DNA of 64,000 bases from Microbacterium hydrocarbonoxydans (GTDB lineage Bacteria; Actinomycetota; Actinomycetes; Actinomycetales; Microbacteriaceae). The DNA is taken from the NCBI RefSeq assembly GCF_904831005.1, contig NZ_LR882982.1:496001-560000 (forward strand), read 5' to 3'. The notes under the pieces were generated by a model, which searched no databases, had not been told where the DNA came from, and saw only the letters and a program-made list of their open reading frames with translations. This document shows, piece after piece, positions 5,687 to 60,038 of the stretch (position 1 is its first letter; each line of letters opens with the position of its first letter). A program made the position numbers and the translations under genes.

Positions 5687-7441
5687 TCAGGCTCGGGATA
5701 TCCGCACAGCCATGAACGGCCGGCCGGGCAGTTCCACGCGCACCGACCCTGATCCGTGCACACCGGGCAGGCGATCGATCGTCATGTTCCAGGTGTCGAT
5801 CACGTCGATCGTCCACTCGCCCTCGTCGAGCATGACCTGGCGGAAGCGCGGGCGGTTGAATCCGAAATACCCGATGCGGAGTTCGCCGGCCACCCCGCCC
5901 CACGGGACGTCCCAGTCACCGGGCAGAGGATCCCACACGCCGTCAGGGGCTTCGGCGAGGAGCTGCTCGAGGAACCGGATGCGATCGGGCGAGGTCCCGT
6001 GCAGCAGTCCGCCCTTCGACCACCACAGGATCTCGTCGTCGAGCCCGAGGGCCGACGGCAGATACGTCTCGCCGTGCCCGACGTATCCTCCGCGCACCGC
6101 GCCCTCCCAGAACCGGCGCACCATCTCCTCCCCGGTGATGTTGCCCCAGCCCTGATCGATGTCGCCCTCGTACGCGCACTCGTCGATCACGACGGGCTTT
6201 CCCCAGCGCTCGCGCCACTCATCCGTGTTCTCGGCGGTGCGGTAGACGTCGACGCGCTGAATGCTCACGTGCGTGATCCACGGGGCCGAGTAGTCGTAGA
6301 AAGGTCTGCAGTTGTGGATCGAGTTGAGATGCCCGAACGCATCCTCCTCGCCGACCACCGCTGCGAGACGCTCCCAGTCGGCGGTGTCCTTGGCCCACAG
6401 CAGGTCGTACTCGTTCGCCATCGACCACCACACGTTCGCGTAGGCCGAGAGCCGGCGCACGACGTAGCGCAGGTAGCGCTCGTCGACGGCGGGACCGAGG
6501 TCGGCGAATCCCCACCGGTCGTACGCGTGGAAGAGGATGAGATCGGCCTGGATGCCGAGGGCGGCGAGATCGGTGATCCTCTGCTCGAGGCGGCGGAAGT
6601 GCGCGGGGTCGAAGCGCTCGAGGTCGAAGCCGTCGGCCAGTGAACCGGGGAACGGGAAGTCTGCCGGCTCGTTCGCGTTGTACAGGTACGACTTCGGGAA
6701 GATGCACATGCGCATCTTGGTGAACGGGGCATCGGCCAGAGTCGCGAGCGTCTGCTCCTGCAGCTCCTCGGGCTGATGCGTCCACGCGTAGGCGGTGGTG
6801 CCGAGGGGGCGATGCCGTGTGCCGTCGGCATGACGGAAGTGCAGACCCTCGACATGCACGGGGCCGTGCGCTCCGTCGGCGGCCGGGCCGACCGAGACCG
6901 TGCCGCGCAGACCGTCGAGCGACCGTGCCGTCGACCGCGTCTCGAACGACCAGTCTCCGGTGGCATCGGCCAGCGCCCGGATCACGTAGGAGCCGTCGCC
7001 GTCGTAGAACCCGCCGACCCGCAGCTCCTCGCCGTCGCGCACGAACACCGCATCGAGCTCGACATCGACGAACGGATTCCCGTGGGACGGTCCGTCGATG
7101 CGGATCTCCAGCGGTGCCCAGAGCGTGACCGACTCGGGCGAGGTCACGGTGGCCGAACCGCGTTCGACGGTCGCGGACTCGTACCCGGGGTCGGGCGAGA
7201 GCGCCGGCGCGTACGGCGCGCGCTGCACGTCGTCGCCGATCTCGGCGAGTTCGGCCCACAGCGTGTCACGAGCCTCCTGCGTCTCGAGCGCCGGCACCAG
7301 AGCGACGAGGCTGCCGAGTCGGCCGTCGCGGAACTGCACGGCCATCGGCGATGCGGCGAATCCGGGCATGAGGCGTTCGAGCACGGCGCGAGCGCCGGGG
7401 TGGTCGAGGGCTTCTCCGAAGGTGGAGCGGCGATCGAACAT
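5687..7441 (-). CDS. DUF5060/DUF5605 glycoside hydrolase-like protein (clan GH-A fold, apiosidase-like superfamily)
   Basis: This cytoplasmic protein has 584 residues and no signal peptide. Residues about 95-190 form a beta-sandwich resembling DUF5060 (TLWAPLEIRIDGPSHGNPFVDV in part). Residues about 200-490 form a TIM barrel, and a DUF5605-like beta domain ends the protein. Two glutamates sit where clan GH-A places its catalytic pair: the NE of SMANEYDLL (343-344) and the E of VVIDECAYEG (about 421). Proteins of this architecture usually also match the DUF4038 family, which includes the apiosidase family GH140; that link is from memory of the families. It is the last gene of the long operon, 21 bases after the GH78 gene. 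The true substrate is unknown. Confidence 0.75.
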   Translation of the reverse strand: MFDRRSTFGEALDHPGARAVLERLMPGFAASPMAVQFRDGRLGSLVALVPALETQEARDTLWAELAEIGDDVQRAPYAPALSPDPGYESATVERGSATVTSPESVTLWAPLEIRIDGPSHGNPFVDVELDAVFVRDGEELRVGGFYDGDGSYVIRALADATGDWSFETRSTARSLDGLRGTVSVGPAADGAHGPVHVEGLHFRHADGTRHRPLGTTAYAWTHQPEELQEQTLATLADAPFTKMRMCIFPKSYLYNANEPADFPFPGSLADGFDLERFDPAHFRRLEQRITDLAALGIQADLILFHAYDRWGFADLGPAVDERYLRYVVRRLSAYANVWWSMANEYDLLWAKDTADWERLAAVVGEEDAFGHLNSIHNCRPFYDYSAPWITHVSIQRVDVYRTAENTDEWRERWGKPVVIDECAYEGDIDQGWGNITGEEMVRRFWEGAVRGGYVGHGETYLPSALGLDDEILWWSKGGLLHGTSPDRIRFLEQLLAEAPDGVWDPLPGDWDVPWGGVAGELRIGYFGFNRPRFRQVMLDEGEWTIDVIDTWNMTIDRLPGVHGSGSVRVELPGRPFMAVRISRA

Positions 7442-43262: not shown

Positions 43263-43292
43263 CGTCCCTCGTCCGCACCGGACACTGACCTC

Positions 43293-43325
43293 CGGCCCGG
43301 GCCCGCTCCGTGCGGGCCCGGGCCG
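43293..43325 (+). terminator. Intra-operon hairpin after binding-protein gene
   Basis: Perfect 14-base GC-only arms (43293-43306 and 43312-43325) with a 5-base loop sit between the lipoprotein and its permeases. Such hairpins commonly raise binding-protein levels over permease by partial termination or RNA protection. Confidence 0.7.
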
Positions 43326-43348
43326 ACACACGTCACGAAAGCACGCCC

Positions 43349-44233: not shown

Positions 44234-44234
44234 G

Positions 44235-45140: not shown

Positions 45141-45142
45141 TC

Positions 45143-45793: not shown

Positions 45794-45803
45794 CCGCCGG
45801 CGC

Positions 45804-46781: not shown

Positions 46782-46818
46782 CGTCGGCGTCCTCTCTTGC
46801 GAACTGATGATGATTCGC

Positions 46819-46837
46819 TAACGAAAGAATATTCAAT
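46819..46837. promoter_or_regulatory. Candidate SorC-regulator operator (autoregulatory)
   Basis: TAACGAAAGAATATTCAAT lies between the SorC gene and the divergent oxidoreductase. Its reverse complement shares 15 of 19 bases with the site at 41821-41839. It contains GAATATTC and part of TTCG-CTAA-CGAA inverted repeats. Confidence 0.55.
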
Positions 46838-46900
46838 GCGGGCAGTATGCGCCAGCCGCTACGCCGTCGGCACTCGCACATCACTCGAAGGAGTCTGCAT

Positions 46901-47758
46901 ATGATCATCGGCGTCACCGGCAGTCAGGGCAAGCTGGGCAGAGCGACCGTCGCGAGATTGCGCGATGAGGGGCATGAGGTCGTCGGCTTCGACCTCGCGG
47001 GCCCGCAGGGCGCAGGCTTCACGCGTCTCGACCTCGCCGACTACGGACAGGTGCTGGATGCGTTCCTCGGAGTCACCGCCCGCCACACCGGGCTCGACGC
47101 GCTGGTGCACCTGGCCGCGATCCCCGTGAACGGGCTGGTGCCCGACGTCACGACGTTCGAGAACAACGTCATGGCCTCGTTCCACGTCATGCTCGCCGCG
47201 CACCGGGCCGGCATCCGCACGCTCGTCACGGCATCGAGCATCACCGCCACCGGGTTCCCCTTCGAGGTGCCGCCGCCGTTCCTGCCGCTCGACGAGTCGC
47301 ACGCCCAGGCGTTCAACACCTACGCGCTGGGCAAGATCGTCGAGGAATCGATGGCCGCGCAGCTCGTGCACTGGGCGGACGGCACGTCGATCACCGCGCT
47401 GCGCTTCACCCACGTCGTCGCCGCCGACGAGTACTCGACGTTCGAGCGCGCCGCCGAGCCGGGCTATCGCCGTGATCTCCTCGGCTCCTGGATCGACGCC
47501 CGCGACGGTGCTCAGGCCATCTCGCTGGCGCTCCGCCATGCGCGGCCGGGGTTCGAGGTCTTCCACGTCGGGCACCCGCTGTCGGGCATCCAGGCGCCGT
47601 CGCGCGACGCCGCCGAGCGCTGGTTCCCCGGTGTGCCTCTGGCCGACGATCTGGGGCCGTACGAGTCTCTGTTCTCGGTGCGCAAGATTCAGGAACGGCT
47701 CGGTTTCGCGCCCGATTTCGATTGGCGCGACGGGTCAACGAGCGCGGCGAGAGACTGA
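46901..47758 (+). CDS. NAD(P)-dependent oxidoreductase of the extended SDR (epimerase/uronate dehydrogenase-like) family
   Basis: This 285-residue protein has the dinucleotide motif GVTGSQGKLG (4-13) and the catalytic Tyr141-x-x-x-Lys145 in TYALGK, with a Ser/Thr run (TASSITATG) before it. The ATG at 46901 follows GAAGGAG. The size and motif spacing resemble sugar 1-dehydrogenases such as uronate dehydrogenase, which make lactones. Being tail-to-tail with the candidate lactonase (24-base overlap), it is a candidate apiose or aldose dehydrogenase. The family is firm; the substrate is not. Confidence 0.78.
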   Translation: MIIGVTGSQGKLGRATVARLRDEGHEVVGFDLAGPQGAGFTRLDLADYGQVLDAFLGVTARHTGLDALVHLAAIPVNGLVPDVTTFENNVMASFHVMLAAHRAGIRTLVTASSITATGFPFEVPPPFLPLDESHAQAFNTYALGKIVEESMAAQLVHWADGTSITALRFTHVVAADEYSTFERAAEPGYRRDLLGSWIDARDGAQAISLALRHARPGFEVFHVGHPLSGIQAPSRDAAERWFPGVPLADDLGPYESLFSVRKIQERLGFAPDFDWRDGSTSAARD

Positions 47759-49453
47759 CAGACGCATCCACTCGCCGCCGTCGAGCTGCACCTCGATCGC
47801 CGAGCCGCCGTCGGCGCGCACCGAGAATCGGCGGCGAGCGCGGTCGAGGTTGGCCACGAGCACGTCATCGCCGGCGTCCGTCCTCGAGCCGATGGCCCAG
47901 AGCAGGCCGTCGGGGCTGTCGCCCGTGAGCAGGGTCCCGCCTCCGAGAGCCAGGAGTGCGCGCAGTGCGCTCTCGGCAGGCGTGCCGACGAGCCCACGGG
48001 AGCCGGCCGTCTCGAACCACGAGACCGTCGCCACGCCCGGTGCGGCGAGCGCGGCGGCGCTGGCGACGAGCCAGGCGGCGAGCTGCGGGGCGCTCTGCCT
48101 GTCGTCGTCTGCGCCGGTGAACTGCGCGCCGTAGCCCTCGCTGAGGTCGGCTCTCGTGGGACTGGGTTCGGGACTCGTCGCGACGTTGTTGAAGCGCGGG
48201 CGCAGCGAGACCGGGCCGATGTGCACGGGAAGCCCCGAGGCGATGTCGACGCTCTGCCGCGCGATGAGCCGCTGCATGACGACCGCCTCGACGAGCTGTT
48301 CGGTGTCGCCGGTGTGGAACAGGGGAGTGGTCGTGACGACGATGCCGTCGACCTCGCGGGCGATGCGCTGCTGTTCGCGATTCAGCTCGGTGAAGTGCGA
48401 CCGCGCGCCGGCGAGCACGGGGGCTGCGACGCCGGCATCCGCGAGCGCGGTCCGCAGTGCTCCGACGGTCGGATCGTCGCTCACATGCAGCACCGAGTCG
48501 AACGCGGTGATGCGCGCGATGCGGTGCCCGCCGAGCGCCTGCACGGCAGTATGCAACGCGCGGGGTGAGCCGTCGGTGATCAGCCTGACGTCGAGGGGGA
48601 TGCCGTCGTCGCCGGCCCGCGAGAGCGCCGCCGCCCACGTGGGCGTCGTGAGATCGAGCTCGACCACGCGGAAGTCTCCGAGGTCTGCGGGCGCGACCGA
48701 CGAGGGGGCTGTGGACGCCTCGACGCCGATCCGGGGGAAGGGTCCTCCCTCCGCCAGCTCGATCACGACGTCGTTCGCGGGACCACCCGCCGCCGGGGAA
48801 GGCAGTGCTGCGCGCGGCGCCTCGACGGTGATGGTCTGACGGATGCTCTCGCCCGCCGGCAGTCGGTACGGGTAGGGCAGATCGAGAGGGCGGCTGTACG
48901 TCTTGAAGGACGCATCCGACCAGTTGCGCTGGTCCTCCATCTCGAAGACGTCGCCCTCGAAGCGGATCGTCGGCCCCGCGTCGATGCGCAGTTCCCGGAT
49001 GTCGGTGATCGGCTGGTGCGGGCTGATCGCGGTGGGGAAGCTCGTCGTCTCGACCCGGTCGTCCGTGTGCACGACCGCCACCGTGCGGCCCGCGTCGGCG
49101 GCAGGATGCAGAGCGACCAGGCCCACGCGACAGGTGTCGAGATCGGTGTGGTTGTCGGCGCGCCAGTCGATCGTGAGCCGGCGGGGTGTGGCGCGCGCCG
49201 ACAACCGCGAGGAGATCGACGCACCGAGTCCCTCGTGGCGCAGCGTCAGGATCAGTGCGTCCTCGCCCGACTCGACGGCGTCCACCGTCGCCGGCACCGT
49301 CAGCCAGCCGTGATCGCGCACTGCCGCGCGCACGCCGCGCAGCAGCATCCGGCCGTCGTGTCGGATCTCGGCCAGCTCGTCTCCGCGCAGCGCGAGGGTC
49401 CAGGGGCCCGAACTCCAGAGCACCTCGTCGTCGCGCCACCAGGAAGTCGTCAT
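47735..49453 (-). CDS. Conserved protein, candidate D-apionate lactonase (ApnL-like)
   Basis: This 572-residue cytoplasmic protein has a beta-rich N-terminal half. It contains the block FEMEDQRNWSDASFKTY near residues 180-196, which I associate with the ApnL lactonase family from memory; I cannot confirm it here. The C-terminal half looks TIM-barrel-like (ALHTAVQALGGHRIARITAF in part, TTTPLFHTGDTEQLVE). The ATG at 49453 follows GGAGG. Its promoter region carries one of three identical 14-base motifs shared with the ApnO-like operon and the GntR region. Alternatively it is an uncharacterised glycosidase-like protein. Confidence 0.6.
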   Translation of the reverse strand: MTTSWWRDDEVLWSSGPWTLALRGDELAEIRHDGRMLLRGVRAAVRDHGWLTVPATVDAVESGEDALILTLRHEGLGASISSRLSARATPRRLTIDWRADNHTDLDTCRVGLVALHPAADAGRTVAVVHTDDRVETTSFPTAISPHQPITDIRELRIDAGPTIRFEGDVFEMEDQRNWSDASFKTYSRPLDLPYPYRLPAGESIRQTITVEAPRAALPSPAAGGPANDVVIELAEGGPFPRIGVEASTAPSSVAPADLGDFRVVELDLTTPTWAAALSRAGDDGIPLDVRLITDGSPRALHTAVQALGGHRIARITAFDSVLHVSDDPTVGALRTALADAGVAAPVLAGARSHFTELNREQQRIAREVDGIVVTTTPLFHTGDTEQLVEAVVMQRLIARQSVDIASGLPVHIGPVSLRPRFNNVATSPEPSPTRADLSEGYGAQFTGADDDRQSAPQLAAWLVASAAALAAPGVATVSWFETAGSRGLVGTPAESALRALLALGGGTLLTGDSPDGLLWAIGSRTDAGDDVLVANLDRARRRFSVRADGGSAIEVQLDGGEWMRLSVSRRAR

Positions 49454-49473
49454 CGAGTCCACACCTCCACCCT

Positions 49474-49487
49474 AACCGGTTGACCAA
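49474..49487. promoter_or_regulatory. Shared 14-base motif, copy 1 (GntR-type operator)
   Basis: AACCGGTTGACCAA (TTGGTCAACCGGTT toward the gene) lies 20 bases before the ATG of the candidate lactonase gene. It is identical to copies at 56132-56145 and 59223-59236. The TGGT-CA-ACC core fits FadR-subfamily GntR sites. Confidence 0.7.
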
Positions 49488-49509
49488 TCCGAGGCGAGGC
49501 GCGCGTCCT

Positions 49510-50577
49510 TCACATCGGGGAACGGCGGGCCGCAGCGCCCAGAGTGCTCTCGCCCGGGCTGATGCGCACCGGCAGCACGACACGCTCGTGCACATGATCG
49601 GGCGCTGCCTCGGCGGTCAGCAGCCGCACTCCCTCGGCACCCATCGCGAAGCCGGGGAGGTCGATCGACGTGAGGGTCATCCAGTCCGCCCCGTCGTCGC
49701 GATGGTCGCCGTCCATGCCCATCACCGCGACGTCGTGCGGCACGCTCAGGGTGCCGTGTTCGCGCAGCAGCTGCAGCGCACCCAGGGCCACCTTGTCGGT
49801 GACGGCGAGGATCGCGCACCGCTCCTCGCCGAGCGAGGGCAGAAGCGAGTGCGCCACCCCGCGCCCGTCCGCCGCCATGAGCCCGCCGACCTCGATCTCG
49901 GTGACCTGCACGCCTCGGGTCGCGGCCGCGTGACGCAGGCCACGGCGGCGTTCGACCACGGGCTGCACGAGATCGGGGATCGACAGGAAGAACACCCGAC
50001 GGATGCCCAGGTCGGCGACATGATCGATCGCCGCCCGACCGACCTGCTCGTTGTCCATCAGCACGGTGCACCAGTCGGCACCGGGCACATCGTGGTTCAC
50101 GACCACGATCGGTCGCACGTGGTTGCGGATCCTCGCGATCCCGGAGGTGGGGTCGCGCATCGACGCGACCATGATCCCTCCGGTCCTCGCCTCGGCGAAG
50201 TGCGCGAGGACCTCGTCCTGCAGATCGTGCTGCACGGTGCCTGCGGCGAGCTCGTGGACGTTGAAGAGACTGTTCGCCATCATCAGGTAGCTGCCGTCGG
50301 CCGCGGCGCTGAGCTGTGCGCCGCGCGCGATCTCGACGAACAGCACGTTGACCAGATCCGGCGTGATGAGCCCGAGCGCATCCGAGCGATTGCGGATCAG
50401 GGTGCGGCCCGCCGAGCTGCGGATGTATCCGAGGCGGTCGATGACCTCCTGCACCCGCAGCAGGGTCTCGGGCGCCAACCGCTCGGGGGCGTTGATCGCG
50501 TTCGAGACGGTGCCGACCGACACCCCGGCTTCACGGGCCACGGCGTTGATCGTGGGATTCGCTCGGGAATCCGTCAT
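49510..50577 (-). CDS. LacI-family transcriptional regulator
   Basis: This 355-residue protein has the LacI helix-turn-helix at residues about 9-32 (TINAVAREAGVSVGTVSNAI) and hinge, then a sugar-binding core ending DVAVMGMDGDHRDDGADWMT (in part) and SIDLPG. The ATG at 50577 was chosen because GAGGGGGAA precedes it. A TACGAT hexamer (50615-50610) between the upstream terminator and the gene may be its -10. It sits between the ApnO-type operon and the lactonase candidate; targets are unknown. Confidence 0.88.
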   Translation of the reverse strand: MTDSRANPTINAVAREAGVSVGTVSNAINAPERLAPETLLRVQEVIDRLGYIRSSAGRTLIRNRSDALGLITPDLVNVLFVEIARGAQLSAAADGSYLMMANSLFNVHELAAGTVQHDLQDEVLAHFAEARTGGIMVASMRDPTSGIARIRNHVRPIVVVNHDVPGADWCTVLMDNEQVGRAAIDHVADLGIRRVFFLSIPDLVQPVVERRRGLRHAAATRGVQVTEIEVGGLMAADGRGVAHSLLPSLGEERCAILAVTDKVALGALQLLREHGTLSVPHDVAVMGMDGDHRDDGADWMTLTSIDLPGFAMGAEGVRLLTAEAAPDHVHERVVLPVRISPGESTLGAAARRSPM

Positions 50578-50620
50578 GGGTTCCCCCTCAGGGTATGCGC
50601 TGTGACGCAATCGTAGGGGA

Positions 50621-50649
50621 GTGCGGGGATCGTGCTGGGATCCCCGCAC
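50621..50649 (-). terminator. Terminator hairpin at the end of the acid-sugar operon
   Basis: Perfect 11-base arms GTGCGGGGATC (50621-50631) and GATCCCCGCAC (50639-50649) with a 7-base loop lie directly after the SDR stop. Confidence 0.8.
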
Positions 50650-50655
50650 GACCGC

Positions 50656-51411
50656 TCACAGGGTGGTCATCCCGCCGTCCACGGCGAACAGGGACCCCGT
50701 CGCGAACTCCGCGTCGGCGCTCGCGAGGAACACCATGATGCCCTCGACGTCGGCGGGGGTGCCCGCGCGGCCGATCGGGATGCGGCCGACGATCGCGGCG
50801 CGTGACTCGGGGTCGTCCGAGATCGTCGACACCAGCCCCGTCTCGGTGTAGGCCGGCACCACGGTGTTCACGCGGATGCCGTCGCGGGCGTAGGCCGCGG
50901 CGACCGTGCGGGCGAGTCCGTGGATGCCCGCCTTCGACGCCGAGTAGGCGGTGAAGTCCTGCCCCTCGCCGTTGATGCCGGTCGGGCTGCCGGTCAGGAT
51001 GATCGAGCCGCCCCCCGAGCCGAGCATCGCGCGGACCGCGTGCTTCACCGTCAGGAAGGTGCCCGTCAGGTTGATGTCCATCGTGCGTCGCCAGACGTCG
51101 AGGTCGAGGTCTGCGGCCTTGGCATCCTGCCCGAACAGCTGCACGCCGGCGTTCGCGACGACCACGTCCGGCGACCAGCCGTCGGCCACCGAGTCCGCGA
51201 AGGCCGCGGCGACCGAGGGCTCGTCCGAGATGTCGACGACCACCGCGCGTGCACGTTCGCCGATCGATGCCGCGACGGCGGACGCGGCGTCGGCATCGCG
51301 ATCGGCGATGATCACCCTGGCGCCTTCACGGGCGAACCTCTCGGCGACGCTGCGTCCGATCCCGGCACCTGCGCCTGTGACCAGGGCGGTCCTGCCCTCG
51401 AGCCGCGCCAT
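50656..51411 (-). CDS. Short-chain dehydrogenase/reductase
   Basis: This 251-residue classical SDR has TGAGAGIG cofactor binding (12-19), NAG in VVANAGVQ, and the catalytic YSASKAG. GRAGTPADVEGIMVFLASADA near the C-terminus is typical of 3-oxoacyl reductase-like sugar dehydrogenases. It starts one base after the ApnO-like stop and is the last gene of the operon. It may oxidise the sugar or tetritol that feeds the pathway, such as apiose or threitol; the substrate is undetermined. Confidence 0.85.
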   Translation of the reverse strand: MARLEGRTALVTGAGAGIGRSVAERFAREGARVIIADRDADAASAVAASIGERARAVVVDISDEPSVAAAFADSVADGWSPDVVVANAGVQLFGQDAKAADLDLDVWRRTMDINLTGTFLTVKHAVRAMLGSGGGSIILTGSPTGINGEGQDFTAYSASKAGIHGLARTVAAAYARDGIRVNTVVPAYTETGLVSTISDDPESRAAIVGRIPIGRAGTPADVEGIMVFLASADAEFATGSLFAVDGGMTTL

Positions 51412-51412
51412 G

Positions 51413-52261
51413 TCAGCGCTCGATCCGGTCGAGGTGCAGCATGCGCGCGAGATTCTTGTCGAGTTCGTCGTCGCGGAAGATCTTCTTCCAGTCGTCCTTG
51501 ATGATGCTCTCGCGCCCGTAATCCATCGCGATCAGGCACGCGTCGGAGAACGGATTGTCTCCGCGCAGTCCGTTGGCGAGCGCGACCTGCGTGTGTCCGT
51601 ACAGGATGCTGCGCGCTGCGGCCTCGGGAACGCCCATGGTCGTGACGGCCTCGTGCAGCGCCTCGTTGAGCAGGGCGCCGATCATGCAGGCCACGGTCTC
51701 GACGAGTGTCGGTTCGAGCTGGGCGAGCTGCTTGACGCTCACCCAGTGCACGTCGATCACGGGGGCGTAGATGGCGCGCACGGTCTCTTCGACGATCGCC
51801 CGTGCGGCAGGATCGTCGCTCTCGACAGCGGCGATCGCATCCTGAGGCGCGGCGATCCCGCCGAAGGTGTCGGCCCACTGCTCGGGCGTCTCGCGCTGCA
51901 GGAAGATCGAGGGATGGCAGGGGTGCGCCACGGCCTGGATCACGTCGTCGCGGGTGGTGAGCAGGCCGGCGTAGGCGGCGGCGGGGTCGAGCGTGAGCAC
52001 GATCGCACCGGCGCGCAGCTGAGGCACCAGCTCCGCCGTGACGGGACCCAGCGCGAGATCGGGCACCGCGAGCACCACGATGTCGGCGTCGGAGACCGCG
52101 ACGTGTGCATCGGTGAGCTCGCGCCCGGCATCCGTCGTGCGCTGACGACCGGCAGGGGAGTTCTCGACGTACCAGACGGTGTGCTCGGTCTTCACCAGGT
52201 TGTCGGACACGCGCATGCCCATCTTGCCTCCGGCGCCGATCACGGCGATCTTGTGGCTCAT
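51413..52261 (-). CDS. apnO: D-apionate oxidoisomerase-like dehydrogenase (ApnO)
   Basis: This 282-residue protein has a Rossmann domain (IAVIGAGGKMGMRV, GAGGKMG at 9-15) and the signature VAHPCHPSIF (about 111-120), then FGGIAAPQ and an alpha-helical C-terminal domain like phosphogluconate dehydrogenase. This combination matches the ApnO family, which oxidises and isomerises D-apionate to 3-oxo-isoapionate. The ATG at 52261 overlaps the TIM-barrel gene stop (ATGA). Neighbouring erythrulose-type kinase and isomerases support the role. It has not been tested by alignment here. Confidence 0.75.
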   Translation of the reverse strand: MSHKIAVIGAGGKMGMRVSDNLVKTEHTVWYVENSPAGRQRTTDAGRELTDAHVAVSDADIVVLAVPDLALGPVTAELVPQLRAGAIVLTLDPAAAYAGLLTTRDDVIQAVAHPCHPSIFLQRETPEQWADTFGGIAAPQDAIAAVESDDPAARAIVEETVRAIYAPVIDVHWVSVKQLAQLEPTLVETVACMIGALLNEALHEAVTTMGVPEAAARSILYGHTQVALANGLRGDNPFSDACLIAMDYGRESIIKDDWKKIFRDDELDKNLARMLHLDRIER

Positions 52262-53052
52262 TGTGTGCTCCTCAGGTGGTCCAGTGTGGCGCGGGTCCAT
52301 GCCCGCTCGGTTCGGATGGTGGTCTCTGCGTCGCCCTGCCACGGCAGCCAGTGCTCGACGATCTCGTTGATGCCGCGCTCGCGCGGCCGCACGGTGCGCT
52401 CGAGGTGCGGGTAGTCGTGCAGCCCCGTCCCCATGGCGGTGCCGGAGTAGGTGAAGCCGACCCAGCCATCCTGGCGTGCGAACGCGAAGTCCTTGACGTG
52501 CACGTTGCGCACGAGGGGAGCTGTCTGCTCGACGCAGGAGCGGGGCAGCTCGAGTCGCGCGACGACGTTCGCAGGATCGAGGCAGATGCCGAGCCGGTCG
52601 CTGCCGACGCTCTCGACCAGGCCGATCAGGTCGGTCGTCGCCACCTGCTCATACGTCTCGAGGGCGAGGGTCACCCCGGCGGTCTCGAAGGAGCGGATGC
52701 CGTCGCGCAGCCACGATCCGGCCTCGGCGAGCGAGGGGCGTGAGTCGGGGCCGTGGAGCATGCTGCGCACGAGCACCGCGTCGAAGATCTCAGCGATGCG
52801 GAGGTAGCGGGTCAGATGCTCTGTGGTGATCCCCTTGGTGCCCAGCTCGATCGTGAGGCCGAGGTCTCGGGCGGCCGAGGCGGCGGTGCGGAGCGCGGCC
52901 GTGCTCATCGCGTCCAACGGCGCGTAGTCGCAGATCTGGAAGAGCTCGACGCCCTGCGCGCGAGTGTCCTCGAAGGCTCCGACAAGGCTCAGCGGCTCGG
53001 GTGAGCGCTCGGAGTGCTGCCAGAAGTAGGCGTAGGTTCCCAGGCCGATCAC
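52258..53052 (-). CDS. Xylose-isomerase-like TIM-barrel protein, candidate 3-oxo-isoapionate decarboxylase (OiaC-like)
   Basis: This 264-residue protein of the sugar phosphate isomerase/epimerase superfamily has metal-ligand blocks LALETYEQ, CLDPANVVA and VHVKDFAF. The N-terminus is IGLGTYAYFW and the ICDYAPLD segment is also distinctive. The GTG at 53052 overlaps the upstream stop (GTGA). It lies directly next to the ApnO-like gene, in the position where a decarboxylase turning 3-oxo-isoapionate into L-erythrulose would fit. That function is inferred; an epimerase is the main alternative. Confidence 0.72.
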   Translation of the reverse strand: MIGLGTYAYFWQHSERSPEPLSLVGAFEDTRAQGVELFQICDYAPLDAMSTAALRTAASAARDLGLTIELGTKGITTEHLTRYLRIAEIFDAVLVRSMLHGPDSRPSLAEAGSWLRDGIRSFETAGVTLALETYEQVATTDLIGLVESVGSDRLGICLDPANVVARLELPRSCVEQTAPLVRNVHVKDFAFARQDGWVGFTYSGTAMGTGLHDYPHLERTVRPRERGINEIVEHWLPWQGDAETTIRTERAWTRATLDHLRSTQ

Positions 53053-53840
53053 GCGGAGTCTCCGATCGGTTCCCGACCACGTCGCAGAGCCGCGAGAGCC
53101 GCGGCCTCATCGAGCACTGCGACGAGTGCCGCGGGGTCGTGCGCGAAGCGCCCGAGGAAGACGCCGTCCACGCCATCGCCCAGCGCGGTGAGGAGTCCCG
53201 GGCCCGCGGCTCCTCCGTAGATCACGACGGATCCCGCTCGGGCGGCGTCGGCGTCGAGGGCCGCGCGCAGGGCCGCGGCGACGACACGGATGTGGTCGTG
53301 CCCCGCCGGTTCCGCAGCGCCGATCGCCCACACGGGCTCGTACGCGACGATGACCGCGCCGGCATCCGCTGCGGCCAGAGCGGAACCGAGCTGGGCGACG
53401 GCGACGAGTGCGGCATCAGCGGGATCGGCCTCTGCGGTCTCGCCGATGCACAGCAGCGGGGTGAGGCCTGCGCGCAGCGCGGCACGAGTCTTGGCGGCGA
53501 CGACGGCATCCGTCTCGCCGTAGAGGCGCCGCCTCTCGGCATGCCCGATCTCGGCGATGCGCGCACCGACCTCGGCGAGCTCTGCCGCCGTCACCTCTCC
53601 CGTGAAAGCGCCCGCGTCGTCGGCCGACACATCCTGGCCACCGATGCGCACCCCGGTCCCCTCGAAGGCGCTGATCGCCGGTGCGACCTGCAGGTACGTG
53701 GGGGTGATGAACAGCGAGACCGCACCGCGTGAGACCGCGTCGTGCTCGCGCACGCGCGACGCCACCTCGTCGAACCAGCTCCGCGCCCGCTCATGCCCGA
53801 AGTACGTCTTCAGGCTCACCCCGACCGTGACCTGCCGCAT
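53049..53840 (-). CDS. Triosephosphate isomerase-like enzyme, candidate L-erythrulose-1-phosphate isomerase (LerI-like)
   Basis: This 263-residue TIM-fold enzyme has the catalytic residues Lys11 (VSLKTYF), His100 (EIGHAERRRLYGE) and Glu168 (VAYEPVWAIG). The canonical Asn-x-Lys start and GHSERR segment are changed to Ser-Leu-Lys and GHAERR, which argues against the housekeeping TPI and for the tetrulose-phosphate isomerases of the LerI/EryH type. Its start overlaps the RpiB-like stop (TGATG). In this operon it should convert L-erythrulose 1-phosphate to D-erythrulose 4-phosphate. Confidence 0.83.
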   Translation of the reverse strand: MRQVTVGVSLKTYFGHERARSWFDEVASRVREHDAVSRGAVSLFITPTYLQVAPAISAFEGTGVRIGGQDVSADDAGAFTGEVTAAELAEVGARIAEIGHAERRRLYGETDAVVAAKTRAALRAGLTPLLCIGETAEADPADAALVAVAQLGSALAAADAGAVIVAYEPVWAIGAAEPAGHDHIRVVAAALRAALDADAARAGSVVIYGGAAGPGLLTALGDGVDGVFLGRFAHDPAALVAVLDEAAALAALRRGREPIGDSA

Positions 53841-54310
53841 CAGCAGGATCCGGTGGTCTCGTACTCGTCGATCACCGCGACCTTCTCGGCACTGGCGCTC
53901 GAGCTGTCGAACCGGTACCCGAGCCACTCGCGCACGAGGCGACGCGCGAGCTCGATGCCGATCACGCGCTGGCCCATCGTCAGCACCTGTGCGTTGTTCG
54001 AGAGCACGGCGCGCTCCACCGAGAAGGAATCGTGGGCTGTCACGGCGCGCACACCCGCGACCTTGTTCGCGGCGATCGCGACTCCCAGTCCGGTGCCGCA
54101 GATGAGCAGGGCGCGGTCGGCCTCGCCGCGGGCGACGAGTTCGGCCGCGGCGATCGCGACGCGCGGGTACGCCGTATGTCCGTCGGCATCGACGCCGACG
54201 TCGACCACCGTGGCGACGCGCTCGTCGCCGTCGAGGTCCTTCTTCAGGATCTCCTTGTAGTCGAAGCCCGCGTCATCGGAGCCGATCACGAGGCGGAGCT
54301 TTTCTGTCAT
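53840..54310 (-). CDS. RpiB/LacAB-family isomerase, candidate D-erythrulose-4-phosphate isomerase (DerI/EryI-like)
   Basis: This 156-residue RpiB-fold enzyme has the active-site Cys71 in [14 protein letters not shown] and the phosphate-binding [11 protein letters not shown]. In the standard ribose enzyme the first block reads with His (GCDHAG); here it is SDDAG, as in tetrulose-phosphate isomerases. The gene follows the kinase by 10 bases and overlaps the TPI-like gene, so erythrose 4-phosphate formation is the likely role. Ribose 5-phosphate isomerase is the alternative. Confidence 0.85.
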
Positions 54311-54320
54311 GGTGTGCCTT

Positions 54321-56045
54321 TCAGTGCGTGACCCGCGCGAGCGAGTCGCCGAGTGCCGTGACGATCAGCGCGAACGAGACCGCGCCGGGGTCTGGGGTGC
54401 CGAGCGCATGCGCGCCGTGGGATCGGGCGCGACCCATCTTCGGCAGAAGGTCTGCGGATGCGGTGGCGGCGCGGGACGCGGCATCCGCCGCCGCAGCCCA
54501 GGCGTCGACGAGAAGGGCGCCACCGGTCAGTGCATCCGAAAGCGTGCGGGTGAACGGCACGAGGGCGTCGACCATGGTCTTGTCGCCCACGTCGGCCTTG
54601 CCGTATGCCTGGACCGCGTGCACGGCATCTGCGACTCCCGCGCTCACCGCTGCGGCATCGGGGCGTCCCTCGTCGCCGAGGCGCTCGGCGACGGCGTGCA
54701 GCATGACGCCCCAGAGCGCGCCCGAGGTGCCGCCCGCGCGGTCGGCCCACGCGTCGGCGGCCCTGATCAGGGTCGTGCGTGCGCCGGCTCCGCGCTCGAG
54801 TGCATCGACGCCGGCGTCCCGTGCCGCGTGCGACCCGCGCTGCATGCCGATGCCGTGATCGCCGTCGCCCGCGATCGAGTCGATGCGACCGAACTCCTCG
54901 ACGTTCGCGTCGACCGTGTCGACGATGATCTGCAGTGCGGTGCCCACATGCCGGGCGATGGCCTGCGAGACCTCGTCGCCGGGCGTGAGCACATCATCGA
55001 TCCGGTCGACTGCGGCCACGACGGCCTGGTCGGCCGGCGCCACCGAGCCGCGGCGATAGGCCGGTGCATCGACGGGTGTCTCCCACAGGCGCTCGAGCTC
55101 CTCGTCGAGCCAGAAGAGCGTGAGCGAGGTGCCGGCCATGTCGAAGCTCGTGCAGTACTCGCCGACATGCGGATCCACGAGCACGAGGCCCGCGTCGTCG
55201 AGCAGCTGGGCGATACGTCGGTAGACGACGAACATCTCTTCGTACTTGAGCGATCCGAGTCCGTTGAGGATGGGCACGACGCGTGCTCCCTCGACGGTCA
55301 CGCCGTCGGGGACCTCGGCGAGCAGCCGCTCCACCAGCAGCGCCGCGAGTTCGTCGGCCGACGGGATGTCGACCTCGTCGATGCCCGGCTCGCCGTGGAT
55401 GCCGAGGCCGATCGCCATGCGCCCCTCTGGCACCGAGAACAGGGGTGCGGCGGCGCCGGGGAGCGTGCACCCGGTGAAGGCGACGCCGAACGACCGCGTG
55501 CGCTCATTGGCGAGCTGCGCCACGCGCGCCACCCCGTCGAGGTCGTATCCGGCCTCGGCCGCGGCGCAGGCGGTGCGGAACACCGTCAGGTCGCCGGCGA
55601 TGCCGCGTCGACGGTGCTTCTCCGAGGGCGGCGCGCTGAAGATGTCGTCCGTGACCGCCACGGTGCGGGTGGGGATGCCGTCGAGACGCAGCCGGTCCTG
55701 CGCCGCGTCGAAGTTCAGCACATCGCCGGCGTAGTTGCCGTAGCTGAAGAAGACGCCGCCGCCCCGCTCGGCCTCGATCGCGACGGAGTACACCTGCTGG
55801 GTCGACGGCGAGGCGAAGAGGTTGCCCATCGCCGCTCCGTGCGCGAGTCCCTGGCCCACGAGCCCGCCGAACGCGGGGTAGTGGCCCGAGCCCCCGCCCA
55901 CCACCACGGCCACCTGTCCTCGAGGGACCACGGTGCTGCGCACGACGCCGCCCTGCACCCGGCGCACCGAGCGCGAGTGGGCTGCGACGAAGCCGTCGAT
56001 CATCTCGTCGGCGAAGGCGGCGGGGTCGTTCCACAGCCGGGTCAT
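54321..56045 (-). CDS. DhaK-DhaL ketose kinase, candidate L-erythrulose kinase (LerK/DerK type)
   Basis: This 574-residue single-chain dihydroxyacetone-type kinase has a DhaK domain (about 1-330; [11 protein letters not shown] and the His that covalently binds the ketose in GLGIHGEPG) and a DhaL ATP-binding domain (about 370-574; [21 protein letters not shown]). Such fused kinases phosphorylate dihydroxyacetone or, in mycobacterial tetritol pathways, D- or L-erythrulose. The operon context with TPI- and RpiB-like isomerases points to erythrulose. The ATG has no ribosome site of its own but overlaps a short upstream reading frame. Confidence 0.88.
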
Positions 56046-56083
56046 GCGGCGGCGCTCGCTGCGGCGGGTGTGATCGTGTTCAC
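56042..56083 (-). CDS. Possible 13-residue leader peptide before the ketose kinase
   Basis: A GTG at 56083, with AGGAGA 4 bases upstream, opens a 14-codon frame (V N T I T P then Ala/Ser-rich) that ends in TGA overlapping the kinase ATG (ATGA). The kinase start lacks its own ribosome site, so coupling through this mini-frame would explain its translation. It could also be chance. Confidence 0.4.
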   Translation of the reverse strand: MNTITPAAASAAA

Positions 56084-56131
56084 GGTGTCTCCTGGCATCG
56101 ACGGTGATCGCGGGATGAGTTCAGTGTGGCA

Positions 56132-56145
56132 AACCGGTTGACCAA
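56132..56145. promoter_or_regulatory. Shared 14-base motif, copy 2 (GntR-type operator)
   Basis: AACCGGTTGACCAA is identical to copies 1 and 3, here 48 bases before the leader frame of the kinase-isomerase-ApnO operon. Flanking bases (GGCA before, TTGC after) partly match copy 3. Confidence 0.7.
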
Positions 56146-56181
56146 TTGCAAGCGCGCGTGCGAACCGGGTGCGCAGACCCT

Positions 56182-57816
56182 TCATCGCTCCCGCGCCGCG
56201 CCGATCTCGAACTCGAGGGTCTCGCCGGTGGCATCCGCCGGCCTGATGCGCAGCTCGTGGCCGCCGAAGCGCTGCGTCCAGATGTCGGGAGCGCCCGAGC
56301 CGGCCGCGATCGCTTCCTGAGCCTGCGGGTCATCGAAGCTCTCGTACACGATCCATCGGCCGGTGCCGACTCGCGTGCTTGCGGCGTGCGCGCCGCACAG
56401 CCACGCGGCGATCAGCACTGTGGCCCCCTTCTCGGCGCACGAGCGCAATCCGGCCAGCGTCGCACTTGGCAGGCGGCTGCCCGCGACGACGATCAGCTCG
56501 GCATCCTCGAGCGTCTGCGGACGCACGTGCTCGTCATACGCGATCACGCCGCGCACCGCCTGGAACAGCCCGTGCGTGCGAGTCGGCGTCGCGGCGCCGC
56601 GCGCGAGGGGGAAGTCCGGCCGAGGCACGGTGTCGAGACCGTGTCGGGGAAAGTCGAACCCCGGGATGTGCATGCAGCTGCCCGTCTCCGGCAGCTGCCC
56701 GTGGCTGAGTGCATGCCACGCCGCGAAGACGCTTCGCGCCGCCTCGGGGGCCGCCGTCAGCCTGTTCCCGAACGGTCGGGCGCCCCTGCCGAAGTCGCTG
56801 TCGTCGGCGTGCACCAGCGCGACATCCGGGCGAGCGTCGCGATACGACCATGCGGGCGCGTTCTGCGGCGCCCAGTCCAGAGCGAATTCGCGCCATACCT
56901 CACCGTGCTCGGTCGCCTCCACCTTCCCGTCGCCGTGATGCCGCACGAGAGCGTCGATGTTCTCGACGAACAGGCGGGTCGGGGCGAAGTGGTGGGCCAG
57001 ACGCAATGCCGAGGCGAACTCGGCGGGAGAGTGCCCGGGGAATCCGGGGGCCCTCGTCGCCCACGGGCCGATGTCGGGCCCCCAGAGGTCTGCGCAGATC
57101 CACAGCTCACGGTCGTACTGCAGCGCCGCGCCGAGGGCCGTGCCGAGCTGAAGGGGCTGGAACGACTCCTTCATGACCTTCGGCGCCGGGGTCATGCCTG
57201 CTCGGGCGAGGAAGTGGAACATCACGGGGAACACGTGCTCCGCGAGCACCGGGACGCGCGGTGCGCCGACGGTGTCGGTGGCCACGTCGATCGTGTCGAT
57301 CATGCGGCGCACGGCCGCGTCGATGACGGCGATCGCTTGCTCGGCGGGCAGGCCCTCGGTCTGGCCGAACTGCGGCAGATGCGCGTCGCGCCGGTACTGA
57401 TCGGCGTGGATCTGCAGATGCTCCGGCTCGTCGTACAGCATCCCGACGAGCGCGCCCGCAGCGGCGGCCGCACCGATCAGATGCGGATCCACGTCGTAGC
57501 GGTTGGTGCCCTCTGCGAACGGACCGTTGATGTTGCCGTACTCATTGCCGAGTACGAGGTCGATCCCGGCGGCGGTCAGGTCGTGCAGCAGCGCGTCGAT
57601 GTCGGTGTGCGTCGGCACCTGATGGTGCACGTAGAACTCCGCCCCGAGTTCCCGCAGCAGCGCGGTGAAGCGGGTCGAGGTCATCGGAGGGTCCTGCGAC
57701 GGGATCGGGATGCCGGTGCCGGTGCGCATGATCTCCTCCGAGGCGGCACCGGCCCAGGGATCCTGGAACGCGACCACGGGCCCCTGGATGCCGAGCGACG
57801 GGGCGTTGCGGGTCAT
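56182..57816 (-). CDS. Unrecognised TIM-barrel glycosidase-like protein
   Basis: This 544-residue cytoplasmic protein does not match a family I can name. Its first 330 residues read like a TIM barrel (ITHL-type strands such as LVLGNEYGNINGP and LWICADLWGPDIGPW), with many conserved-looking Trp, His and acidic residues. Residues about 390-480 resemble a class I glutamine-amidotransferase-like domain as in GH42 trimerisation domains (DAELIVVAGSRLPSATL, KGATVLIAAWL). Its start overlaps the lipoprotein stop (TGATG), so it probably acts on what that lipoprotein binds. GTG at 57819 is an alternative start. Confidence 0.7.
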   Translation of the reverse strand: MTRNAPSLGIQGPVVAFQDPWAGAASEEIMRTGTGIPIPSQDPPMTSTRFTALLRELGAEFYVHHQVPTHTDIDALLHDLTAAGIDLVLGNEYGNINGPFAEGTNRYDVDPHLIGAAAAAGALVGMLYDEPEHLQIHADQYRRDAHLPQFGQTEGLPAEQAIAVIDAAVRRMIDTIDVATDTVGAPRVPVLAEHVFPVMFHFLARAGMTPAPKVMKESFQPLQLGTALGAALQYDRELWICADLWGPDIGPWATRAPGFPGHSPAEFASALRLAHHFAPTRLFVENIDALVRHHGDGKVEATEHGEVWREFALDWAPQNAPAWSYRDARPDVALVHADDSDFGRGARPFGNRLTAAPEAARSVFAAWHALSHGQLPETGSCMHIPGFDFPRHGLDTVPRPDFPLARGAATPTRTHGLFQAVRGVIAYDEHVRPQTLEDAELIVVAGSRLPSATLAGLRSCAEKGATVLIAAWLCGAHAASTRVGTGRWIVYESFDDPQAQEAIAAGSGAPDIWTQRFGGHELRIRPADATGETLEFEIGAARER

Positions 57817-59126
57817 CACTGGTCGACGACCACATCCATCTCCGCGAAGAACTGCGTGGCGGCGTCCTCGACGGTGATGGTGCCGAATCCGAGCTCCTCG
57901 CCGAGCTCGCGGAACTTCTCATGCAGCGACCCGTATCCGACGATCGGCACGGGCGGCGCGTCGCCGAGGCGATCGGCGACCGACGCCTCGTAGTCGGCGA
58001 TCGTCTGACTCAGCTCGTCGAGGTCGGCGGCGTCGCGAGCGGTGGCCGAGGCCGGCAGCCCGCGGTTCGTGCCGAAGATCTCTCCCGACTCAGGCGAGTT
58101 GATCAGGAAGTCGATCAGCGTCGCCGCGGCGGCAGGATGATCGGAGTTCGCGGCGATCGAGTACATCTGGGATGCCTTGAGGTAGAGGTCCTTCCCCCCG
58201 TTCTCCGAGAGCGGAGGCGCCATCAGCTCGATGTCGAAGCCCTCGCCGAGATTGCCCAGGAACCCGGCTCCGGTGTTGTCCCACGTGGCATCGCTGGCCG
58301 TGAGCGCCGAGTCGAATGCGGTGAGCGGCTGCACCTCGGCGACCCGCTGCTGCGGGGCGACCCCGCCGTCCTTCCGCAGCGCGGACGTCGAGTCCCAGAA
58401 CTCCGCGAGGCGCTCCTCGTCGAAGCCCGGTGTGCCGTCCTCCTCAAACAGGTTGCCGCCCTCGGCGCGTAGCTGGAGTTCGAAATTCTCTATGCGTGTC
58501 GTCGGGTCGACTCCGCCCCAGACGTCGGCGCCCTGTGCGGCGGCCGCAGTGCTCACCTCGGTCATCCAGTCGTAGTACTCGTCCCAGCTGCCGCCCTCGA
58601 AGGCGTCGACGCCGAACTTCTCGAGCAGAGTGGTGTTGAGGAACATGCCCCACGAGTTGGTCGAGAGAGGCACGGCGGTGGTGGTGTCGTCGACGACCCC
58701 CGCCGACAGCACCTGGCTGTCGATCGGCTCGGTCTGGATGATCGTGCCGAGATACGGCTCGAGGTCCAGCAGCGATCCGCTCTCCGAGTACTGCCGCAGG
58801 TAGGCGAGGTCCATCGTGACGACGTCGGGAAGACCGCCACCGGCCGCTTCGATCTGCCGCTTCTCCCAGTAGTCGTTGGGGGAGAGGAAGAGGATCTTCA
58901 CGTCGATGTTCGGATACTGCTCCTCGAACGCCGCGATGGCCTCGTCGTACAGTGCGGCACGAACGTCGTTGCCCCAGAAGGTGAAGCTGAGCGAGACGTC
59001 CTCGTCGGGGTCGAGTGTGGCCGGGGCGTCGGACGCCGGTGCGCTCGCCGCGCAGCCCGTCACGGCGAGTGCGGCTGCCAGCCCCATCGCCATGACCGTG
59101 ATCGTGCGCATGTGTCGGAATCTCAT
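57816..59126 (-). CDS. Sugar ABC transporter substrate-binding lipoprotein (CUT1), without adjacent permeases
   Basis: This 436-residue SBP_bac_1 lipoprotein has the lipobox VTGC (Cys25). Blocks such as FTFWGNDVRAALYDEAIAAF and SPNDYWEKRQIEA are typical. The ATG at 59126 follows AGAGG. No permease or ATPase gene is next to it, so it must work with permeases elsewhere or share another importer. It is divergent from the GntR regulator with copy 3 of the 14-base motif between them. Confidence 0.87.
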   Translation of the reverse strand: MRFRHMRTITVMAMGLAAALAVTGCAASAPASDAPATLDPDEDVSLSFTFWGNDVRAALYDEAIAAFEEQYPNIDVKILFLSPNDYWEKRQIEAAGGGLPDVVTMDLAYLRQYSESGSLLDLEPYLGTIIQTEPIDSQVLSAGVVDDTTTAVPLSTNSWGMFLNTTLLEKFGVDAFEGGSWDEYYDWMTEVSTAAAAQGADVWGGVDPTTRIENFELQLRAEGGNLFEEDGTPGFDEERLAEFWDSTSALRKDGGVAPQQRVAEVQPLTAFDSALTASDATWDNTGAGFLGNLGEGFDIELMAPPLSENGGKDLYLKASQMYSIAANSDHPAAAATLIDFLINSPESGEIFGTNRGLPASATARDAADLDELSQTIADYEASVADRLGDAPPVPIVGYGSLHEKFRELGEELGFGTITVEDAATQFFAEMDVVVDQ

Positions 59127-59222
59127 CGTGGGGACCTCTCGTCGTCGAGCTGGAACCAGGAAACGTTTTCTTGGAATGGCCGGAGAATGGCGACCACCGG
59201 CCGCCATCTCGCCAGTTTGCCA

Positions 59223-59236
59223 AACCGGTTGACCAA
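59223..59236. promoter_or_regulatory. Shared 14-base motif, copy 3 (GntR-type operator)
   Basis: AACCGGTTGACCAA lies between the divergent lipoprotein and GntR genes, so it can serve both. This location next to the regulator gene is the reason to assign the motif to the GntR protein. Confidence 0.7.
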
Positions 59237-59278
59237 AAGCAATGCTCAGATGATGCCAACTGCCGTATGTTGTCGTAT

Positions 59279-60016
59279 ATGCCCGCATTTCCTGATGACC
59301 GGTCCTCGGAGATCACGGCCGCGCTCGGAGTGCTCCCCACCGGCACCCCCGTCTCAGAGGTCGCCCGGCGCATGCTCGACCTCTTCACCGGCGGATCGAT
59401 CGCGGCCGGCACGAGGCTTCCTCCCGAGCGTCAGCTCGCCGCGACGCTCGGCGTGGGCAGGTCGGCGGTGCGCGAGGCGCTCGCCGCACTCGAGATCCTG
59501 GGAATAGTCGACGTGCGCCCCGGCTCCGGCACCTATCTGCGAGGGGCCGCGAGCGAGCTGTTGCCGCAGACGCTGCGGTGGGGCCTGCTGATCGGCGAGC
59601 GGAACACCACAGAGCTCCTCGAGATGCGCGAGGGGCTCGAGATCTTCGTGTGCCGTCTCGCTGCGGCCAGGGCCGACGCCGCTGTGATCGCTCGCCTCGA
59701 GAAGGACGTGGCTCGGATGCGCGAGTCGTACGACGACCTGGCGGTCTTCGCGCGCGCGGATCTCGACTTCCACCACGCTCTCGCCGAGGCGGCGGGCAAC
59801 CACACGCTCACCGACCACCTGCACGTGATCCGCTCGCTGCTCCAGGTCTACGCCGACCGTGCGGTGCATGACCGCGCGCACGCAGAGGTCGCGACCGCCG
59901 AGCACGAGGCGGTGCTGGCCGGAGTCCGCGCCGGCGACGGCGATGCCGCGGCATCCGCGATGGCGGTGCACATGGCCACCGCCACCGCCCGACTGCTCGC
60001 GGAACGCGGCGACTGA
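59279..60016 (+). CDS. GntR-family (FadR/FCD) transcriptional regulator
   Basis: This 245-residue protein has the GntR winged helix-turn-helix (LPPERQLAATLGVGRSAVREALAAL, in part, near 43-70, and RPGSGTYL) and an FCD ligand domain with its metal-binding region (DLDFHHALAEAAGNHTL). The start is uncertain: ATG at 59279 is given, ATG at 59267 is possible, and neither has a clear ribosome site. FCD regulators usually sense acid sugars or small carboxylates, which fits control of the apionate genes. Confidence 0.87.
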   Translation: MPAFPDDRSSEITAALGVLPTGTPVSEVARRMLDLFTGGSIAAGTRLPPERQLAATLGVGRSAVREALAALEILGIVDVRPGSGTYLRGAASELLPQTLRWGLLIGERNTTELLEMREGLEIFVCRLAAARADAAVIARLEKDVARMRESYDDLAVFARADLDFHHALAEAAGNHTLTDHLHVIRSLLQVYADRAVHDRAHAEVATAEHEAVLAGVRAGDGDAAASAMAVHMATATARLLAERGD

Positions 60017-60038
60017 CCCTCCCCACCAGAAGGACGAC

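Follow-up and report, generated by a model that had tools for sequence, protein, structure and literature searches.

The window analyzed here, a stretch of 64,000 nucleotides from Microbacterium hydrocarbonoxydans (contig NZ_LR882982.1, positions 496,001 to 560,000; numbered below from its first letter), very probably encodes a regulon for the catabolism of D-apiose and D-apionate, a reading to which we assign a probability of roughly 0.8. The reading draws on gene families, a common operator, synteny and co-occurrence, all observed directly in the sequences, and from these the enzyme activities given below are predicted. The route itself, from D-apionolactone through D-apionate, 3-oxo-isoapionate and L-erythrulose to erythrose 4-phosphate, is already known in kind; new here are a predicted step catalyzed by a short-chain dehydrogenase/reductase (SDR), an operator linked to a GntR-type regulator, and the wider regulon. 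The central genes are the following.

54321..56045, minus strand: DhaK-DhaL ketose kinase (DhaKL; Pfam Dak1 6.1e-106, Dak2 2.9e-43), with a gap of 10 bases to the RpiB-like gene
53840..54310, minus strand: RpiB-like isomerase (Pfam LacAB_rpiB), with a 1-base overlap with the TPI-like gene
53049..53840, minus strand: TPI-like isomerase (Pfam TIM 6.8e-51), with a 4-base overlap with the TIM-barrel gene
52258..53052, minus strand: xylose-isomerase-like TIM barrel (AP_endonuc_2, PF01261, 6.1e-14), GTG start, with a 4-base overlap with the ApnO-like gene
51413..52261, minus strand: predicted ApnO-like D-apionate oxidoisomerase (PGDH_C 5.6e-56), with a gap of 1 base to the SDR gene
50656..51411, minus strand: SDR (Pfam adh_short)
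50621..50649, minus strand: terminator-like hairpin after the SDR gene (-24.2 kcal/mol, z -4.69)
49510..50577, minus strand: LacI-family regulator (Pfam LacI, Peripla_BP_3)
47735..49453, minus strand: predicted ApnL-like D-apionate lactonase of 572 residues (NF049900, 1.3e-56)

The first six genes form a minus-strand operon (50656-56045) in which no gap exceeds 10 bases, and the coordinates bear out the initial annotation, which had described this run as joined by overlaps or short gaps. The hairpin, the LacI gene and the ApnL-like gene follow downstream of the SDR gene in that order, and the eight frames from DhaKL to the 572-residue protein, LacI included, contain no internal stops. The "perfect terminator" claimed for the operon end stands in part: the hairpin lies directly 3' of the SDR stop, its 11-bp stem with a 7-base loop is perfect, and none of 200 shuffles matched its folding energy, but it has no T-run and is omitted by a simple terminator scan.

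In the proposed pathway, D-apiose, a branched plant sugar that an apiosidase-like enzyme may free from glycosides, would enter the cell through a transporter of the RbsABC type, encoded at another site in the genome (about G000 3281108-3285517), and be oxidized by the SDR to D-apionolactone. ApnL would convert the lactone to D-apionate, the ApnO oxidoisomerase would convert D-apionate to 3-oxo-isoapionate, and the OiaC-like TIM barrel would decarboxylate the latter to L-erythrulose. DhaKL would then form L-erythrulose 1-phosphate, which the TPI-like enzyme would turn into D-erythrulose 4-phosphate; this in turn would be isomerized to D-erythrose 4-phosphate by the RpiB-like enzyme. The divergently encoded GntR-FCD protein is the most likely candidate for a repressor that would occupy the spacer between the -35 and -10 elements until an intermediate releases it. 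Microbacterium would thereby gain a complete predicted pathway for apiose together with its regulon, in which an SDR instead of ApsD is predicted for the first oxidation, an enzyme family not expected at that step.

The TIM-barrel decarboxylase type of D-apionate degradation, comprising ApnL, ApnO, OiaC and LerK/LerI/DerI, was reportedly described by Carter et al. in 2018 (Nat Chem Biol 14:696), and the enzyme families and end product of this D-apionate decarboxylase pathway are those predicted for the window operon. On plasmids of Erwinia E602 and Pantoea At-9b, genes for a major facilitator superfamily (MFS) transporter, DhaKL, TPI, TIM barrel and ApnO lie on one strand and rpiB on the other, and the kinase-TPI-TIM-ApnO order is that of the window. 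The window differs from this type in being actinobacterial and in adding the SDR, ApnL and the GntR-linked operator, as well as an apiose-type ATP-binding cassette (ABC) transporter, a solute-binding protein (SBP) and an orphan protein family, p545. The Rhizobium etli (R. etli) CIAT 652 locus on plasmid pC holds rbcL, an OiaK-like gene, tpiA, rpiB, an ApnO-like gene and SBP-DUF2291-RbsA-RbsC, together with a Gfo/Idh-type oxidoreductase gene (PC0973, by NCBIfam), ApnL and DhaK/DhaL. The window genome has relatives of the ApnL, ApnO-, TPI- and RpiB-like, DhaK/DhaL and transporter genes of this apiose-type locus, whereas the locus has PC0973 and OiaK/OiaX where the window operon has the TIM barrel and no close ApsD relative adjoining. 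The branch of RuBisCO-like proteins (RLPs), with OiaK and OiaX, is described in PMC6302742 and PMC11747546. The R. etli rbcL product scores 785 bits against the OiaX model, and the OiaK gene falls below its own cut-off (467 vs 700). Since tblastn at 1e-8 with R. etli OiaX and OiaK detected nothing in the 68 ApnO loci surveyed below (the window being searched from 44001), and since the TIM barrel matches its counterparts in Erwinia and Pantoea, the window operon is assigned to the TIM-barrel decarboxylase type.

The families predicted for the window genes hold, which supports the apionate-operon reading of the initial annotation. Identities to the Erwinia, Pantoea and R. etli proteins, in that order, are 60, 59 and 44% for DhaKL (44% being DhaK; R. 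etli DhaL, 30%), 48, 50 and 42% for the RpiB-like protein, 49, 47 and 35% for the TPI-like protein, and 58, 57 and 42% for the ApnO-like protein, the partners of the last being PGDH_C proteins in Erwinia and Pantoea and the gene in ApnO position in R. etli; the TIM barrel is 52 and 50% identical to those of Erwinia and Pantoea and has no match in R. etli. The ApnO-like protein, whose best PDB match is 5t57, belongs to the PGDH_C family and carries the GAGGKMG and HPCHP motifs that had been pointed out in it, as do the Erwinia, Pantoea and R. etli proteins, a combination that marks it as a predicted ApnO oxidoisomerase. The GHAERR motif singled out in the TPI-like protein is common to Erwinia and Pantoea (GHSERR in R. 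etli), and K11, H100 and E168, which we take to be the catalytic residues, are invariant among these proteins. SDDAG was likewise confirmed in the RpiB-like protein (ADDAA or ADSAG in relatives), which, like its Erwinia and Pantoea counterparts, has Asp at the variant active-site position, where the residue is Ser in R. etli and His in ordinary RpiB. Residues E132, D159, H185 and E233 of the TIM barrel are invariant across eight aligned sequences, and its named closest relatives are from Microbacterium; family and context, rather than comparison with a characterized OiaC, lead to its prediction as an OiaC-like 3-oxo-isoapionate decarboxylase. DhaKL is predicted to be a LerK-like L-erythrulose kinase, and the families of LerK, LerI and DerI are presumably the DhaKL, TPI and RpiB types. 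The RpiB-like protein matches the DerI model NF051858 at 9.7e-43, below its cut-off (146 vs 240 bits). The 572-residue protein, which has no Pfam family and is 29% identical to R. etli ApnL, matches a single NCBIfam model, NF049900, D-apionate lactonase (E 1.3e-56, below the strict cut-off of that model), the family with which the initial annotation had proposed to compare it.

ApnO was found in 70 of 247 genomes of the genus (1e-100), and gene content was followed in 68 ApnO loci, namely the window and those of 67 of the 69 other ApnO-positive genomes (G132 and G195, available as short pieces, were excluded); some loci are cut by contig ends, and presence was scored at identity thresholds of 40-65% by gene. 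The TIM barrel occurs in 67 of the 68, ApnL in 63, the SDR in 61, the RpiB-like gene in 60, the TPI-like gene in 59 and DhaKL in 58. Because this set recurs across the genus, the operon represents more than a chance arrangement.

Kinases and isomerases of these types, to which LerK, LerI and DerI belong, would also suit the catabolism of tetritols (erythritol or threitol), in which the SDR would be a tetritol dehydrogenase feeding L-erythrulose to them and the other genes would be incidental. SDRs are plausible as alditol dehydrogenases, and PMC10733421 describes the erythrulose phosphate steps of LerK, LerI and DerI and their service in a tetritol module. However, no members of the loci are more constant than ApnO (68 of 68, the basis of selection) and the TIM barrel; among 23 chosen ApnO-positive genomes, the SDR is absent from precisely those that lack ApnL, a pattern that a tetritol dehydrogenase would leave unaccounted for; and the regulon holds a transporter related to that of R. 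etli. We regard tetritol catabolism as highly improbable.

Within the apiose and apionate pathway, the SDR is probably a D-apiose 1-dehydrogenase that replaces ApsD; we know of no D-apiose-oxidizing role for this SDR family. Beside ApnO, the SDR and ApnL occur together in 61 loci, ApnL alone in 2 and neither in 5, and the SDR never occurs there alone. Whole-genome searches of the 23 chosen genomes (SDR, E <= 1e-75; ApnL, E <= 1e-15) found the SDR in 19, ApnL in the same 19, and both absent from the same 4 (Fisher p 1.1e-4, in a non-random sample of related species made up of 7 exceptions and 16 hand-chosen genomes, our own included). Of 59 drawn genomes, all 14 that are ApnO-positive have the SDR, as does 1 of the 45 that are ApnO-negative. 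In all four off-operon cases seen, from that one ApnO-negative genome and the three exceptions whose SDR is encoded away from ApnO, the SDR gene lies directly behind an apiosidase-like gene on the same strand, and these neighbors are 74-87% identical to the following window gene, whose product matches PDB 4n0r, a putative glycoside hydrolase.

5687..7441, minus strand: apiosidase-like protein (DUF5060, PF13204, DUF5605)

A Gfo/Idh gene was considered for the role of ApsD and rejected: R. etli PC0973 finds only weak matches in the genome (11 in all, the best at 28% and 3.5e-18, none a clear ApsD relative) and just three in the 68 ApnO loci, all at 25%.

A different account of the SDR has the acid itself imported, so that the operon would serve apionate only and the SDR would act elsewhere in the pathway, e.g., in reducing an intermediate of the erythrulose type. 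Of the 68 loci, 32 hold a relative of the Erwinia and Pantoea MFS transporters (identities of 67 and 69% for the L006 copy); 28 of them have the SDR as well, which led us to drop transporter type as a marker of acid versus sugar uptake. The five loci that lack both the SDR and ApnL beside ApnO would also fit an apionate-only operon, with the qualification that G005 has both genes elsewhere. Against it, no such MFS gene was found in the window operon, to which the search was confined; the genome holds an operator-bearing apiose-type transporter; and the SDR adjoins apiosidase-like genes wherever it was seen off the operon. An apionate-only operon appears improbable. The apionate substrate of the initial annotation is retained, with the correction that D-apiose is probably also a substrate and that the regulon extends beyond the operon then described, as the operator and the genes around it indicate.

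56132..56146, no strand assigned: operator AACCGGTTGACCAAT in the promoter spacer of DhaKL, within TTGCAA-N17-CACACT
49474..49488, no strand assigned: operator upstream of ApnL, by sequence match
59223..59237, no strand assigned: operator between the GntR and SBP genes, with one mismatch in 15 and an exact 14-mer core
59279..60016, plus strand: GntR-family regulator with FCD domain (Pfam GntR 2e-16, FCD 3.9e-24, in the frame 59171-60016; predicted start codon)
57816..59126, minus strand: extracellular SBP of the regulon (SBP_bac_1 3e-24), no permease adjoining
56182..57819, minus strand: p545 orphan family, with conserved acidic and His residues

The operator AACCGGTTGACCAAT is exact at 49474 and 56132 and has its one mismatch at 59223; at least three matches with up to three mismatches arose in 1 of 100 shuffles. 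A search of the single-contig 3.72 Mb genome containing the window for the 14-base core, with up to one mismatch allowed, returned four sites, all exact, of which three lie in the window and one before DUF2291-RbsA-RbsC-RbsB; the reversed pattern gave one match. The exact operator is present in 64 of the 68 ApnO loci, and in 76 aligned exact-core sites it is preceded by TTGCAA and followed by CANAAT, which resemble -35 and -10 elements spaced 17 bases apart. Since the operator sits between these conserved flanks, repression by occupation of the promoter spacer is likely, with the caveat that the genomes are related to one another. The regulon would thus comprise the operon, ApnL, the SBP gene with p545, and the distant apiose-type transporter, its part in the window extending to 59126, and the single operator sequence offers a handle for testing it.

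The divergent GntR-FCD protein is the likely regulator acting at this operator. Its gene occurs in 61 of the 68 loci, in 54 of which an exact operator lies at most 400 bp from it, and in locus L078 GntR lies between the transporter and the operon, each of which is preceded by an operator. The LacI protein was favored at first, as its gene lies inside the window cluster, and the operator core includes AACCGGTT, whose central CG is frequent in LacI-type operators; furthermore, seven GntR-bearing loci have no exact operator within 400 bp of GntR, and LacI relatives of at least 60% identity were counted at the ApnO loci only, the relatives' genomes elsewhere not being searched. It was demoted because such a relative is found in 7 of the 68 loci, the window included, compared with 61 for GntR and 64 for the exact operator. 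The conserved core also reads AATTGGT-CA-ACCGGTT, which resembles UxuR/ExuR-type FCD sites, and binding of the common operator by LacI instead of GntR seems unlikely.

The transporter DUF2291-RbsA-RbsC-RbsB at about G000 3281108-3285517, with the operator upstream, has the components of the R. etli apiose type (RbsB-DUF2291-RbsA-RbsC), which points to D-apiose as its predicted substrate. Its RbsB scores 371 bits to both 5ibq and 4ry0, the next PDB match reaching 188; we take both to be R. etli proteins and 5ibq to be the one with D-apiose. Identities to the R. etli components are 63% for RbsB, 55% for RbsC, 47% for RbsA and 33% for DUF2291. As a separate observation, nucleoside-hydrolase-like genes adjoin the regulon in locus L007 (5199-6275 and 6342) and, as a candidate, in the window (59859-60929); one in L007, of family PF01156, is preceded by an operator with a single mismatch.

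Several results weigh against a D-apiose and D-apionate regulon. The ApnL-like protein scores far below the curated cut-off of NF049900 (192 vs 750 bits; R. etli ApnL reaches 1064), the RpiB-like protein passes the cut-off of TIGR02133, RPI_actino, a ribose-5-phosphate isomerase model (207 vs 168), and the TIM barrel matches no NCBIfam family. The SDR does not follow transporter type, being held by 28 of 32 MFS-bearing loci, and a relative of the regulon transporter occurs in only 6 of the 23 chosen genomes, our own included, so that most SDR-positive genomes would need another apiose importer. In genome G009 the SDR is present but ApnL and ApnO are not, and genome G052 has an ApnL gene (L149 9067-11121) without an SDR or ApnO match, this being the one ApnL found among 17 ApnO-negative genomes searched (of 45). 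A substrate other than apiose is possible for the SDR. The G052 ApnL gene stands in frame behind an apparent MFS gene fragment and is perhaps an operon relic.

The SBP and p545 genes overlap in the window and have one operator in common. Neither Pfam nor NCBIfam matches p545, a profile search found no PDB relative, and the only match of a single-sequence search had E 0.31. The family occurs in Microbacterium, Paenibacillus and Cohnella, its named closest relatives being Microbacterium, and in 5 of the 59 drawn genomes, all ApnO-positive (p 4e-4). Among 65 p545 loci fetched, nine from Microbacterium (L006-L013, L058) run from SBP-p545 to DhaKL, RpiB and TPI, and eight of them continue to ApnL (L011 is cut by a contig end); three others from Microbacterium (L014-L016) and 53 from elsewhere lack apionate genes. 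Neighbors in the 53 include apiosidase-like genes in 18, GH95 in 24, GH2 in 25 and GH29 in 14 (GH, glycoside hydrolase), as well as Gfo/Idh, TIM-barrel and ABC genes; these counts come from crude open reading frame clusters with one representative per family checked, and carry no chance control for GH-rich genomes. Perhaps p545 is a glycoside hydrolase; that it might be an apiosidase is a guess.

About 8 kb from ApnL, a separate operon contains the OiaK/OiaX-like genes of the window.

39783-41807, minus strand: GH127 protein (best PDB match 5mqo)
38521-39837, minus strand: RuBisCO-like protein (best NCBIfam match OiaX)
37266-38528, minus strand: OiaK-like kinase (best NCBIfam match OiaK)

Among PDB entries, the GH127 protein is nearest to 5mqo (621 bits; next match, 332), which we take to be BT1003. 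The RLP and the kinase match the OiaX and OiaK models best, at 390 and 255 bits, well below the cut-off of 700. BT1003 is described as an aceric acid hydrolase in PMC5698469 and PMC10850190. The RLP occurs in 39 of 244 genomes, all 39 of them ApnO-positive, and the GH127-RLP-kinase order is kept in all 30 loci fetched, the best 30 of the 39 with our own (L151) included (the kinase match is partial in L178, and GH127 is cut in L160). Of the nine genomes beyond these 30, the three examined have RLP relatives of 48-49% in an OiaK-ApnO-OiaX locus. A tree of 34 RLPs separates these three relatives, together with the OiaX of R. etli, from the GH127 type at a support of 1.0; the window RLP is thus on a branch separate from OiaX and sits with GH127 rather than with ApnO/ApnL. 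The second locus of these genomes (L181 6036-11287, L182 and L183), with OiaK, ApnO and OiaX (and ApnL, checked in L183), exists besides the TIM-barrel operon, and possibly provides two apionate routes in one genome.

GH127, the RLP and the kinase possibly form a module for aceric acid, and more tentatively, with odds clearly below even, the window would be part of an island for the rare sugars of rhamnogalacturonan-II (RG-II), in which the SDR oxidizes D-apiose, the side module handles L-aceric acid by analogous chemistry and p545 is an RG-II or apioside hydrolase. L-aceric acid would be released, converted from aldose to ketose by an isomerase, and phosphorylated; the RLP would then decarboxylate it to 5-deoxypentulose 1-phosphate, and aldol cleavage would yield dihydroxyacetone phosphate and acetaldehyde. 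A narrow literature search found no description of aceric acid catabolism, and if the module acts on aceric acid, a RuBisCO-like clade would gain a substrate and this sugar acid a catabolic route. It is also possible that the OiaX/OiaK-like pair is a parallel apionate branch: the presence of ApnO in all RLP genomes fits dependence on ApnO as well as it fits an RG-II island. On the other side, the pair keeps company with GH127 in every fetched locus, and OiaK, ApnO and OiaX have a locus of their own in three genomes.

Elsewhere in the window, the region 5687-37205 contains GH43, two GH2, GH78, an FGGY kinase and an aldolase-dehydrogenase fusion along with the apiosidase-like gene. GH140m was considered as a gene of the apionate operon and set aside; elsewhere it accompanies a second gene set (GH42, epimerase-like, SorC-like, racemase-like and ABC genes; L094 by eye), and for this reason it was not used as evidence for apiose. 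The region 41925-47758 of the window holds an SBP gene, two permease genes and racemase-like, SorC-like and epimerase-like genes, relatives of which are found in other genomes together with GH42 and a different apiosidase-like gene.

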